Shown here: piece after piece, positions 41,848-45,076 of the stretch
Layout of the letters: every line of letters begins with the position of its first letter
How positions within the stretch are numbered: the stretch's first letter is position 1
Source: an uncultured Alphaproteobacteria bacterium
GTDB lineage: Bacteria; Pseudomonadota; Alphaproteobacteria; Rs-D84
Reading direction: 5' to 3'
Assembly (NCBI GenBank): GCA_944389385.1
Contig: CALXMC010000001.1
Location: 1 to 64,000, forward strand
Length of the DNA stretch: 64,000 nucleotides
Notes under the pieces: model-generated
Databases searched by the model: none
Told to the model about the DNA's origin: nothing
The model's input: only the letters and a program-made list of their open reading frames with translations
Translations under genes and position numbers: made by a program

Positions 41848-44538
41848 TCAGAAGTTGTATCTTGCGCGAACCATACCAGTCTGGGATGTATAATATTCGC
41901 GAACTTCGATATCGTAATTCAGCGAAACATCAACACCCGCATACGTCATGGTTACACCCAATCCGAATTCACCGCCCAAACGGTTCAAGCGTTCCCCGCT
42001 GATGACATAGGCATTTACCCCCGGCATAGTTACCGTTGATACTGCATTATCAGACAAGAAATCATACTTTACCGCTGCGCGGACTTCTGGACGGATACGG
42101 ACTGATTCAGACGGGTTATAATCGAACGCATATTTCGCGCCCAATACACCGGTCAGATAGTCAGAATCCGCGATTTCACTCGCCACACCCAGGCTGTTTG
42201 TATAATCAGCCCCGCCGATATGCAGGTAACGCACGGCAATCTGGGGTGTGATACCCGATGCGAAATCATATCCAGTCGCGATTTGCCCACCGAACGAATC
42301 GATGTCATATTCAGAATCGATTAACACGCCCAGCGCATCGCCAGATTCCGTATAACTGGACATAGTATAATTCAACATCGCGTTTGCATACCATTGTGAC
42401 GGCTTGTATTGGCCATACACGAACACAGTATGACTGTCGATATCGGTATTACGCGCGGACGCATCTATATCAGACGCAGCGAACGAATACCCTGCCCCGA
42501 TTGAAAAATCGCGTCCAATTGTGCCGTCGATACCGGCCGCGACACCCATGGTTTCGCCATCGAACAAATCATTTGATTTAGATTTGTTAAACAATCCCTG
42601 GGCCCAAACACCGCCGGCCGTCAAAGACGCATCGCCACCGGCACGTCCAGTCATACCAACCGGCGCGATGGACGCCATACGACCTGCGACCAAGTTCGCC
42701 ACAGTATTTTGCACAGACGTTGTAACCGATTGTGCCACAGATGCAGTTTCAGGATTTATCGCGCGTGTGGCATGCTCAACCGCGGCAGAATCTTTGACTG
42801 CCAAAGCCTCTTGGGCACGCACACCCAAATCATTCAACGCATCAGATGAAGATTTTGTCAAATTAACAACCGATTGCGCCGCATCCACAGTCAGGTTACT
42901 GTCCGCCGCAACCTGGGCCACAGATTTTTCAGTTGCGGTAAATGTCTTGCCATCTTCTGCCAATTCAATACCATACAACACACTGTCTATCTCGACATTA
43001 TCAAACGTCGCATTGCCAAAGATGTTGTATTCACCAGCCTTGTCCAGAATCAAAGACAAATTACCATCACCTGTAAATGTATCCGCTGTGATTTTTGCAG
43101 TGTCTGAACCCTCTGTCAGATTTGCAATCATCGTACCATCCAGTGTAATGGACGACAAATTAACAATCGCATCACCGATGTTCATTACTGCGCCACTGGC
43201 AACATTCAAAGCACCATCGCCCAAAATATCGCCGGCGAACAAGTTTTCACCACCTGTGATATCCAATTTGGTACCGATGTTCAACGGGCCACCGTTAAAT
43301 GTTGCATCCGCAACGGTCGCATTATCAACCGTAATACCGCGTTCAGTATCTTGGATATTTACAACGCCATTGTTGATGTTCAGATTATTCAGCGCAACAT
43401 AATAACTGCCCGAGTCTTTTCCTTTGTTATCAACAATCGCGGTTGCATTCCACTTGGCACCATCTTGGATGTTCAAAGTCATGCTATCGACCTGCATAAA
43501 CGATTCATCATCTGGGGTACCGGTGTATGATGCAATGGTATTGCCTGTCCAATAAGAATCCGCACCGGCCAAAGTAACATTAACATCTGCGTTGATTTTT
43601 GTTCCAGATGTTGGAGCATTATAGTCAAAATTAACATTCCCCTCCATCTGCGTTGTGTGTGCGCCATCAACATTTATATTGGTGATTGCATCACCACGTG
43701 TAACCAACACATTTTCGCCCTTCAAAAACGCATTGCCGTTAATGTTCAAAATACCTTGACTCATGGCCGCCAACGCATCATCAACATCAGATACGATACG
43801 AATATTATCCGCATTTATGTCAATACGCGCAATGGCATCTTGGTCTTGGGCATTTGTTGTGCTGTTTTGCACATGCACCACCGCGGTTTCCAAGACACCC
43901 GTTGAATGTAAATTTACATCTTTTGCATTTACATCAATTTGCCCAAATTCTATCGCCAACAACGCAGCAGATGCGTTTGCATTTTCTGTTGCGCTTGTGG
44001 CTATATCTATCTTATCGGCATTTAATGACACTTTTGATGAATATTTCGCACCATCCGATGCTTCATTCATAGTACCAGCCGCACCGACACCGCGCCAATT
44101 ACTGCTGATGTTAATTTCTTTTGCCTGGACATCAACGTTTGCATTGTCATACGCATACAGTGCGCGTACCTGTTGCTCACTCTCTTCCGTGGCAGTAATA
44201 TTTGTGACGGAAATATTTACAGATTCTGTATTTTCACCACCCAACTGTAACGAAACCGGACCTGTCGATCCATTATTAACAGTAATGCCATGGGCATTTG
44301 CGGACTCGACTGCAATTTTTGAACCTGTCATCTCGACCGCCAGGTTATCAACCCCAGAATTCTGTATGTTCAACGTGCCAATGCCAGTAACGTCACCAGT
44401 AATTGTTGTATTTTCTATAATGGAATGCCCATCTTCAAAGGCCAGTCCATCATCCGCCGCCATTGCGGGCATGACCAGCAACGCCGGCAATACAGATACA
44501 CCAAACATCAATCCGCGGAATTTTGTGGAATTTGACAT
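41848..44538 (-). CDS. Autotransporter protein (896 aa)
   Basis: A signal peptide (about 1-29) leads a passenger of repeated beta-strand sequence rich in Asn, Asp, Thr and Val (about 30-560; for example NITATEESEQQV, NADKIDIATS, INADNIRIVSD), typical of a beta-helix. A linker and a C-terminal autotransporter barrel (about 630-896) follow, ending GMVRARYNF with terminal Phe. The barrel has GVWAQGLFNKSKSN, IGAGYSFAASD and GGQIATGYDF. The ATG at 44538 follows AAAGGAG. The long leader RNA upstream suggests regulated expression. Passenger function is unknown. Confidence 0.88.
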   Translation of the reverse strand: MSNSTKFRGLMFGVSVLPALLVMPAMAADDGLAFEDGHSIIENTTITGDVTGIGTLNIQNSGVDNLAVEMTGSKIAVESANAHGITVNNGSTGPVSLQLGGENTESVNISVTNITATEESEQQVRALYAYDNANVDVQAKEINISSNWRGVGAAGTMNEASDGAKYSSKVSLNADKIDIATSATENANASAALLAIEFGQIDVNAKDVNLHSTGVLETAVVHVQNSTTNAQDQDAIARIDINADNIRIVSDVDDALAAMSQGILNINGNAFLKGENVLVTRGDAITNINVDGAHTTQMEGNVNFDYNAPTSGTKINADVNVTLAGADSYWTGNTIASYTGTPDDESFMQVDSMTLNIQDGAKWNATAIVDNKGKDSGSYYVALNNLNINNGVVNIQDTERGITVDNATVADATFNGGPLNIGTKLDITGGENLFAGDILGDGALNVASGAVMNIGDAIVNLSSITLDGTMIANLTEGSDTAKITADTFTGDGNLSLILDKAGEYNIFGNATFDNVEIDSVLYGIELAEDGKTFTATEKSVAQVAADSNLTVDAAQSVVNLTKSSSDALNDLGVRAQEALAVKDSAAVEHATRAINPETASVAQSVTTSVQNTVANLVAGRMASIAPVGMTGRAGGDASLTAGGVWAQGLFNKSKSNDLFDGETMGVAAGIDGTIGRDFSIGAGYSFAASDIDASARNTDIDSHTVFVYGQYKPSQWYANAMLNYTMSSYTESGDALGVLIDSEYDIDSFGGQIATGYDFASGITPQIAVRYLHIGGADYTNSLGVASEIADSDYLTGVLGAKYAFDYNPSESVRIRPEVRAAVKYDFLSDNAVSTVTMPGVNAYVISGERLNRLGGEFGLGVTMTYAGVDVSLNYDIEVREYYTSQTGMVRARYNF

Positions 44539-44803
44539 ATTTTCTCCTTTCGTTTTTTGACCAGTTACAAAACCCAAAAGGGAAAGATGTCAGGGGGTTC
44601 ACAAATCTACAACAGAAGACTCCGATGGTTTTCCGGTTGCCCGTCTTTTATATACCACCAGCCCCCCGACCATAATCAGGGATTTTTTTCATCAGGTGCG
44701 AAAACACCACTCAGATTTTCTTCACGATGCCCTCGCACCGCTGTTGCAGGAATTGTGACATTCCTGAATCACCACAGTTCCCCATGGGATTCACATTTGA
44801 TAC
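44539..44803 (-). promoter_or_regulatory. Structured leader RNA of the autotransporter
   Basis: About 265 nt between a TTGATT-17-TAGTAT promoter (44828-44800) and the ATG. Perfect stems include CAGGAAT/ATTCCTG (44747-44766), GGTGCGA/TCGCACC (44695-44739) and a long-range GTCGGGGGG/CCCCCTGAC pair (44589-44670). The order GGGGAAC, GGTGA, GCAAC and ACCTG resembles pieces of a cobalamin riboswitch, but spacing and the core do not match well, so no ligand is claimed. Confidence 0.45.
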
Positions 44804-44860
44804 TAATATGCGATATGTGAAAAATCAAGTGTAAATAAAATGTTTTTTATCATAAAACGA

Positions 44861-44986
44861 CTATCCGAATCGGTAAATACGCACAAAACTGACATCGCTT
44901 GTGCCTGTTGTGCCACTGCCACCGGCGCCACCATCCATATTAACGGGCAATGTAAATTTGGCCTGAAACGCGCCACCCCCACCGCC
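44861..44986 (-). pseudogene. Remnant 3' end of a gene
   Basis: An open frame of about 40 codons without start reads GGAFQAKFTLPVNMDGGAGG and SGTTGTSDVSFVRIYRFG, then a TAG stop. It is cut off upstream by the dispersed repeat at 44970-45045. The Gly-rich protein-like composition suggests a surface protein C-terminus. Confidence 0.35.
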
Positions 44987-45048
44987 GGGGGGGGGTATCA
45001 CCCGAAGCCTTGGCGAAGGGTGACACAAGTTACGAGTAACCAGTAACT
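44970..45048. repeat. Dispersed repeat, short copy
   Basis: CCACCCCCACCGCCGGGGGGGG followed by CACCCGAAGCCTTGGCGAAGGGTG and ACACAAGTTACGAGTAACCAG, the same order of parts as in 1-1250 and at 41.6 kb. It truncates the remnant reading frame at 44861. Confidence 0.7.
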
Positions 45049-45049
45049 A

Positions 45050-45076
45050 AAAAACCCCGCCAATCGGCGGGATTTT
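45050..45076 (-). terminator. Terminator of the secretin gene
   Basis: CCCGCC-AATC-GGCGGG hairpin with A and T runs. Confidence 0.85.

Follow-up and report, generated by a model that had tools for sequence, protein, structure and literature searches.

Upstream of an autotransporter gene of an uncultured alphaproteobacterium lies a long, structured leader, which raises the question of what kind of RNA it encodes and whether this RNA belongs to a known regulatory family. In the window (the whole stretch of 64,000 nucleotides analysed here), the leader covers 290 nt of the minus strand at 44539-44828; the element itself runs slightly past these limits, and the start codon of the gene is at 44538-44536. 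The gene product matches the Pfam Autotransporter beta-domain (E = 1.4e-31). The structured 5' leader proposed in a preliminary description was confirmed: the predicted folding energy is -100.1 kcal/mol, compared with -75.7 ± 4.6 kcal/mol for shuffled sequences (z = -5.36), and none of 200 shuffles folded equally well. Taken alone, the core of the leader is not unusual (z = -1.35; 20 of 200 shuffles equally stable); i.e., the excess stability is a property of the whole leader and not of the core.

The leader in the window and its core

Searching Rfam with cmscan matched the core to RF02221 (sRNA-Xcc1) at 44670-44581 of the minus strand, with 48.1 bits and an E value of 5.1e-07. The match spans the full model (positions 1-87), and the P1/P2/P2a/P3 fold of the family is found in the aligned window core. 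The gathering score of RF02221 is 53, which the window core does not reach, and copies above this score were observed in 4 of the 183 genomes of the window's family; the core is therefore homologous to RF02221 without being filed as a member, and is treated here as a separate subfamily. The long-range GGGGG/CCCCC pairing described earlier is P1, the closing helix of this match (44670-44662 with 44597-44589). The hint at a cobalamin riboswitch fell away: RF00174 and its relatives are absent from all 16 Rfam matches of the leader at E <= 10, no riboswitch family of any kind is found there, and the cobalamin-like words (GGGAA, GGTGA, GCAAC, ACCTG) are chance occurrences. Membership of RF01695 (C4) was also rejected, with no match in the leader at E <= 10 although the plan is the same, and the window's own genome contains no RF01695 match at E <= 1e-6. 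A blastn search for phage DNA related to the window leader gave no match. As for the idea that the RNA is new, it does not hold for the core, a sub-threshold relative of RF02221 with the plan of the C4 antisense RNA; the novelty seems to lie in how such RNAs are deployed, in many copies per genome, as leaders of host genes.

In 67 related cores, that of the window included, 92.3% of the cells of the core structure are paired versus 80.7% after shuffling (0 of 500 shuffles reached this value), and pairing falls to 36-49% when the structure is slid by one to three columns. Changes on both sides of a pair are seen in 194 cells versus 55 in the shuffled set. A lineage model, R1, was built from 67 of 77 aligned leaders, with ten divergent ones removed by hand, and consequently matches its source loci by construction. 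In the window, R1 matches 44672-44560 with 63.5 bits and an E value of 1e-14, the window copy having been part of its alignment, and no other match has an E value below 0.5. The parts of the leader are listed in Table 1.

Table 1. Positions of the parts of the leader and of the gene behind it in the window
Feature	Position	Strand	Basis and remarks
Promoter-like element, TTGATT (44828-44823), 17-nt spacer, TAGTAT (44805-44800)	44800..44828	(-)	Read from sequence
P0, 5'-terminal hairpin, GAAUC (44792-44788) with GAUUC (44770-44766)	44766..44792	(-)	Read from sequence
Pa, hairpin AGGAAU/AUUCCU	44748..44765	(-)	Read from sequence
b1, CUGCAACAG, upstream partner of b'	44741..44749	(-)	Nine pairs with b', including one G-U
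Inner hairpin, GGUGCGA ... UUUUCGCACC	44695..44739	(-)	MFE fold; like hairpins seen by eye in several relatives
Anti-P1 hairpin, UCCCUGAU (44682-44675) with the P1 5' strand GUCGGGGG (44670-44663)	44663..44682	(-)	MFE fold
Antisense core (P1, P2, P2a, P3), RF02221 relative	44581..44670	(-)	cmscan; lineage model R1
b' arm, CUGUUGUAG, P3 loop region; pairs with b1	44607..44615	(-)	MFE fold; alignment columns
a' arm, UUGUGA; pairs with a1	44599..44604	(-)	MFE fold
Weak terminator-like CCC-UUUU-GGG plus UUUU	44569..44582	(-)	Read from sequence
Shine-Dalgarno sequence AGGAGA, possible b2	44543..44548	(-)	Read from sequence
Autotransporter gene, 896 aa from the ATG	41848..44538	(-)	Translation; directly behind the leader

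The promoter-like element directly before the 5' hairpin is weak (8 of 12 consensus bases) and was not reported by a sequence scan; a TANNNT box is located at the matching place in 68 of the 77 aligned leaders (fraction in shuffled sequences, 0.40). The P0 columns 102:110 and 100:112 covary in these leaders, and the window row is unpaired there, its MFE fold pairing the stretch otherwise. Pa, with covarying columns 134:153, presents a1 (UCACAA, 44758-44753) in and beside its loop and is an alternative to the a1/b1 helix; a similar hairpin was recognized by eye at canonical RF02221 and C4 loci. The b1:b' helix of the window is formed in the MFE fold, and the energy of the duplex between arm and upstream region, -30.8, is matched by 1% of the arms of other loci (rank 0.01). 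Because the window row is misaligned in the b1:b' columns of the 77-leader alignment, the pairing in the window is based on the 9-nt match, the MFE fold, and the duplex energy. This helix includes no pure Watson-Crick run of 8 and is not counted among the 46 of 60 loci described below; the window copy pairs less perfectly than its relatives. For a1:a', columns 138:413 and 150:411 covary, the first of which corresponds to the window pair C44757:G44600.

The rule that finds a terminator in 62 of the 77 leaders finds none in the window copy, and R1 places its terminator on the weak terminator-like sequence with non-standard pairs. As read from the sequence, AGGAGA is complementary to UCUUCU (44619-44614; six pairs, one of them G-U). 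This b2 pairing over the Shine-Dalgarno sequence may be due to chance, as b' does not generally pair with the start region in the lineage.

The end of a Gly-rich, remnant-like open reading frame (44861-45028 of the minus strand, 55 aa) lies directly upstream of the leader and includes an eight-base G/C run near its start; a close relative (L021) has a similar reading-frame end in the same position. The interval that separates the secretin gene from the leader region contains, at 45056-45071, a perfect hairpin, rich in GC, with a plus-strand T-run; by reading, the other strand is T-rich too.

Covariation and pairing codes in the lineage

The comparison is based on 92 lineage loci, three from the window's own genome and the rest the best-scoring ones among the family matches listed. 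Sufficient upstream sequence was available for 91 of them, and 77 leaders were left after removal of near-identical ones. When all column pairs of these leaders were scored without an assumed structure, covariation among homologous leaders was evident: the top pair joins b' in the P3 loop to b1 upstream of the core, with 91% standard pairs of six types, and neighboring columns covary as well. Other high-scoring pairs belong to a1:a', P0, Pa, P1, P2, P2a, and the terminator, with P3 lower in the list. The top 60 also include couples that do not pair, starting at rank 23, and therefore shared ancestry adds signal; one pairing couple (135:387, rank 15) falls outside the model. These statistics ignore the tree, and swaps of helix halves serve as a stand-in: the seven helix columns are 80.2% paired within their own leaders versus 46.3% with the halves swapped (sd 2.0, maximum 52.5% in 2000 swaps), and the value is 44.5% when the halves are swapped with the most similar core. 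In the aligned columns, six or more of the seven helix pairs are kept in only 40 of 77 loci. Covariation across relatives thus supports the predicted helices P0, Pa, P1, P2, P2a, P3, and a1/b1:a'/b', and a putative terminator in most leaders.

Watson-Crick runs separate own from foreign partners. A run of at least 8 between b' and its own upstream region occurs in 46 of 60 distinct lineage loci, compared with 3.4% of mismatched pairs (the test comprised 60 distinct b' from the 92 lineage loci and 28 of 30 canonical loci), and in the 24 genomes with at least two copies, b' pairs with its own leader in 42 of 53 cases and with another copy in 3 of 68. On these comparisons, each lineage locus bears its own, private b1/b' code, as predicted from complementarity. 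At least 7 Watson-Crick pairs between b' and the start region were found in 7 of 59 lineage loci versus 4.9% of mismatched pairs; the start-codon pairing (a2/b2) would hence be mostly lost in the lineage, with the upstream pairing kept and strong. Exceptions that keep the start-codon pairing include L065, L071, L087, L093, L096, and L098. At L006, which precedes a protein reading as Rha, the arms match both flanks better than any foreign arm does, and this locus is plausibly an intermediate within the same lineage.

Two earlier tests were replaced. With duplex energies, the own arm was in the best 5% of mismatched arms for 64 of 91 lineage loci upstream and 11 of 91 downstream (canonical loci, 14 of 30 and 11 of 30, respectively); with G-U-tolerant runs of at least 8 upstream in the lineage, the fraction was 0.97 for own pairs versus 0.65 for mismatched ones. 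Own and foreign pairings likewise did not separate when ten copies of the own genome were compared all against all (10 x 10) with G-U allowed. These first tests separated less well, since conserved segments rich in GC or AU pair on their own, and the Watson-Crick-only and re-pairing (half-swap) tests were used in place of the energy and G-U tests.

Four copies in the window's own genome (L158, L159, L160, and L161) form a divergent subtype, GGUUGGAGG...CCUCCAACC, and two of them (L158 and L160) have a near-exact second partner of the P1 5' strand just upstream. One of the genes behind this subtype reads as an HTH regulator, and one has a signal-like N-terminus.

Downstream genes, proposed switch, and distribution

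The end of the RF02221 match is followed by the start codon after 30-55 nt in 63 of 75 lineage copies. By a home-made gene caller and hydrophobic N-terminus rule, 56 of 68 downstream proteins of the lineage have a hydrophobic N-terminal segment versus 3 of 26 at canonical loci. Pfam matches of 82 downstream proteins, among the 25 of 34 families listed, include Chlam_PMP (7), PAP2 (7), OMP_b-brl (3), and YadA_anchor (3), and, among non-surface families of the same 25 of 34, HTH_3 (3), Glycos_transf_2 (2), and Phage_pRha (1). The downstream genes would accordingly encode mostly secreted or surface proteins, as judged from their predicted products. The relatives thus support the earlier proposal that a surface protein has a regulatory RNA in its leader, through covariation, a near-constant distance to the start codon, and mostly secreted or surface genes; the cobalamin part of the proposal is not supported. 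The named relatives of the autotransporter itself come from metagenome assemblies of uncultured (Alpha)proteobacteria. Eight loci with such relatives were inspected, and R1 is directly upstream in two (73% and 51% identity), which indicates that the association of leader and gene is not kept over larger divergence. No R1 match lies directly upstream in L126, L127, L128, and L129 (45, 39, 38, and 51% identity, respectively; L128 offers only 188 upstream bases), and L130 and L131 match the autotransporter only in its C-terminal half.

The start-codon distances bear on the possibility that the core is a free-standing trans-acting sRNA with distant mRNA targets, lying upstream by chance of a gene with its own promoter. 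Such a role would suit the terminator found after the core in 62 of 77 leaders and the size of sRNA-Xcc1, for which published excerpts give a Northern band of about 100 nt and 88 nt by end mapping, and it would also suit the L069 group with its start codons 113-118 nt away and promoter-like sequence between. We consider it unlikely for the lineage as a whole, as the arms match their own leader (42 of 53) and rarely that of another copy in the genome (3 of 68), and 30-55 nt to the start codon in 63 of 75 copies leaves little room for a second promoter. The two functions could coexist.

The group in question consists of L069, L070, L083, L084, L085, and L123, in which 113-118 nt separate the element from the start codons of long secreted proteins; a promoter-like sequence is present in this gap in those of the group that were read. 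In copies of this type, the RNA may be a separate sRNA, judging from the spacing.

The terminator distinguishes the lineage from canonical copies. It follows the core in 62 of 77 lineage leaders (4 of 385 in shuffled sequences) versus 1 of 30 canonical copies, and in these 62 it overlaps P1; a terminator before the core is present in 17 of the 30 canonical copies and in 25 of the 77 lineage copies. An anti-P1 stem of at least 7 contiguous pairs is found in 53 of 77 leaders (fraction in shuffled sequences, 0.25). A looser test with at least 5 pairs was discarded as not discriminating (76 of 77 versus 0.91 of shuffles). When the P1 3' strand is shortened by its final four bases, the hairpin region behind it loses a median of 6.4 kcal/mol, and at least 2 kcal/mol in 73 of 77 leaders; the window copy loses only 0.4 kcal/mol.

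The leader is probably a C4/sRNA-Xcc1-type antisense module that has been domesticated as a cis attenuator with locus-private codes. The core would fold as P1-P2-P3 with two arms, b' in the P3 loop and a' on the 3' side of P3, whose partners would be a1/b1, close to the leader's own 5' end. We infer two alternative folds, in which the P1 5' strand is paired either with the P1 3' strand or with an upstream copy. In the off state, a1/b1 would lie on the arms, anti-P1 would hold the P1 5' strand, and the 3' strand would be free, such that the terminator forms. In the on state, a1/b1 would be engaged otherwise, P1 would form and take four bases of the terminator stem, and RNA polymerase would pass. 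A candidate for engaging a1/b1 is the released core RNA of the same locus, and the opposite sign of control is also possible. Pseudoknot-free MFE folds contain the a1/b1 fold in 56 of 77 leaders and P1 in 1 of 77, with a mean gap of 8.4 kcal/mol. Since folding favors a1/b1, the off state looks like the default, and a1/b1 must be engaged for switching on; a P1 state that the RNA may reach is, in such folding, hypothetical. Forming the full a1/b1 helix and P1 together, as a pseudoknot, seems sterically difficult given the linker of only a few nucleotides between them. In the window, where the helix and anti-P1 are present but the terminator-like hairpin is weak, the output step may instead be translational, and b' could also cover the Shine-Dalgarno sequence.

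Alternative pairing with a terminator in 62 of 77 leaders, a multi-domain structure, and the invariant core letters (A4) are also what a new class of metabolite riboswitch would present, with the core (UAUACAACAGG..CCGAAA) as the ligand-binding part and the a1/b1 helix as the expression platform. This is less likely still than an independent sRNA, given that no common pathway is evident among the downstream genes, up to 12 of 26 genes behind the relatives are of phage type or SymE, no riboswitch family was matched at E <= 10, and the helix is a locus-private code. We know of no riboswitch with locus-private helix codes.

The presumed attenuator is widespread in the lineage, i.e., in bacteria with very small genomes that are known here only from metagenome assemblies. 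The window's own genome (993 kb) contains three RF02221 matches at E < 1e-4, which precede the autotransporter gene, a putative glycosyltransferase gene, and a gene for a putative outer-membrane barrel protein, with start codons 34-42 nt past the match. At E <= 0.01, RF02221 is present in 96 of 183 genomes and 12 of 13 genera of the window's family and in 0 of 14 control genomes; at the looser E <= 10, a match occurs in 2 of 14 controls. With R1, the own genome has 11 copies at E < 1e-3, and 176 of the 183 family genomes have a match; many reach the 20 matches scored per genome, and copy numbers are lower bounds, since scoring was limited to some 20 candidates per genome. R1 was also found in 14 of 18 further genomes of the order; in the class at large, 18 of 190 genomes have a match, and three of these belong to the window's genus. 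A pattern scan of IMG/VR gave three contigs, one of which matches R1 (viral contig L189, 4576-4706, 51.2 bits) and has by eye an upstream a1 hairpin and b1; the other two have no R1 match at E <= 0.1, and in one of them the hit is within a long open reading frame. That the leader is mobile or repetitive DNA, with single-stranded hairpins that matter for movement and with only incidental regulation, is very improbable in spite of the many copies per genome and the RF02221 copies in integron cassettes noted in passages of PMC12444791, as the near-constant distance and orientation to start codons, the -10-like box before the 5' end in 68 of 77 leaders, and compensatory changes including G-U pairs speak against it.

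In a wider sense, we suggest tentatively that a phage immunity RNA may have become a lineage-wide regulon, in which ten to twenty or more self-coded leaders per Mb (in many genomes), each with a private code, would set the expression of secreted and surface proteins gene by gene and perhaps sense the level of their own transcripts via the released core RNA. If true, this would explain the orphan RNA family RF02221 and would be a clear case in which an immunity RNA of phages dispersed within a bacterial lineage and came to control surface and secreted genes in cis. In passages of PMC12189769, RF02221 relatives are regarded as sRNAs involved in virulence, and 212 bacterial targets are predicted for them besides targets in plants; the nearest testable targets of these RNAs are their flanking sequences. 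The private codes make the function directly testable by compensatory mutation.

Canonical RF02221 and comparison with known systems

RF02221 occurs at E <= 1e-6 in 45 of 398 genomes of the phylum, the own genome included, and 30 canonical loci were taken from the best matches, one per genome. The 26 canonical downstream proteins include Bro-N (5), Rha (3), SymE (2), P22_AR_N (1), KilA-N (1), HTH_38 (2), and Rap1a (1); i.e., by Pfam at most 12 of 26 loci precede phage antirepressor or SymE genes. At least 7 Watson-Crick pairs link the arms to the upstream region in 24 of 28 loci (9.8% of mismatched pairs) and to the start region in 10 of 28 (2.8%). At one locus (L034), RF02221 precedes a SymE-type gene (Pfam SymE_toxin, E = 1.7e-13), and b' matches the start region, UCUGUGAG with CUCACAGG; this putative RNA control of SymE is unlike the cis-encoded SymR of E. 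coli as outlined in published excerpts.

RF02221 RNA is reportedly trans-acting, as the title of Chen's 2011 report is said to state. In our reading, RF02221 is a C4-type family with a different core. No publication linking it to the C4 plan was found in the open-access literature, and the original report (Chen 2011) may say more; in the same literature, sRNA-Xcc1 and an antirepressor were not found named together. Passages of PMC12189769 name sRNA-Xcc1 next to C4, as two distinct RNAs, and according to passages of PMC12444791, Xanthomonas integron cassettes carry sRNA-Xcc1 upstream of symE.

Twenty C4 loci were inspected by eye and contain an a1 hairpin, b1, a terminator, the core, a2, and b2 over the Shine-Dalgarno sequence. 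A Watson-Crick run of at least 9 is found downstream in 11 of 20 (0.8% of mismatched pairs) and upstream in 5 of 20 (2.9%). In phages, such arms bind a2/b2 at the ribosome-binding site and thereby silence the gene that follows. The c4-a1b1 motif was listed by Weinberg in 2010 (table of PMC2864571), and excerpts of PMC5320573 state that the b' loop of C4 partly covers ribosome-binding sites, that a' gives specificity, and that RNase P cuts at GGW. By sequence letters, 58 of the 77 leaders have a GGW no more than 3 nt away from the 5' end of P1. Single genomes hold 20 (G312), 14 (G328), and 10 (G276) RF01695 copies; at 10-20 copies per genome, the spread of C4-type RNAs is thus not limited to the window's lineage.

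Like transcription attenuators, the leader has a strand that can pair alternatively and that overlaps an intrinsic terminator in most relatives. The differences are that the window copy is without a consensus terminator and that the arm in the lineage is a private antisense code and not a sensor of a peptide, a tRNA, or a ligand. C4 of phages P1 and P7 (RF01695) follows the same plan of a1 hairpin, b1, terminator, and core with a'/b' and flanking targets, and in the window copy the arms are complementary to the upstream a1/b1 (nine pairs, one of them G-U). The core sequence is different, the upstream pairing dominates in the lineage, and the gene controlled in phages, an antirepressor gene, is replaced in the window by that of an autotransporter. 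With sRNA-Xcc1, the leader shares the full-length core, P1/P2/P2a/P3, the AUACAA..GAAA heart, the position before a gene, and arms complementary to the flanks; it differs in that the lineage genes are mostly those of host secreted or surface proteins and not of antirepressors or SymE, that a2/b2 is mostly lost, and that the terminator comes after instead of before the core. The Group 1 sRNAs of Acinetobacter baumannii, described in passages of PMC5320573 as C4-like, are C4-type RNAs spread in a host genome. These carry the C4 motif, and host targets are only proposed for them, whereas the lineage copies are leaders of genes with covarying targets of their own.
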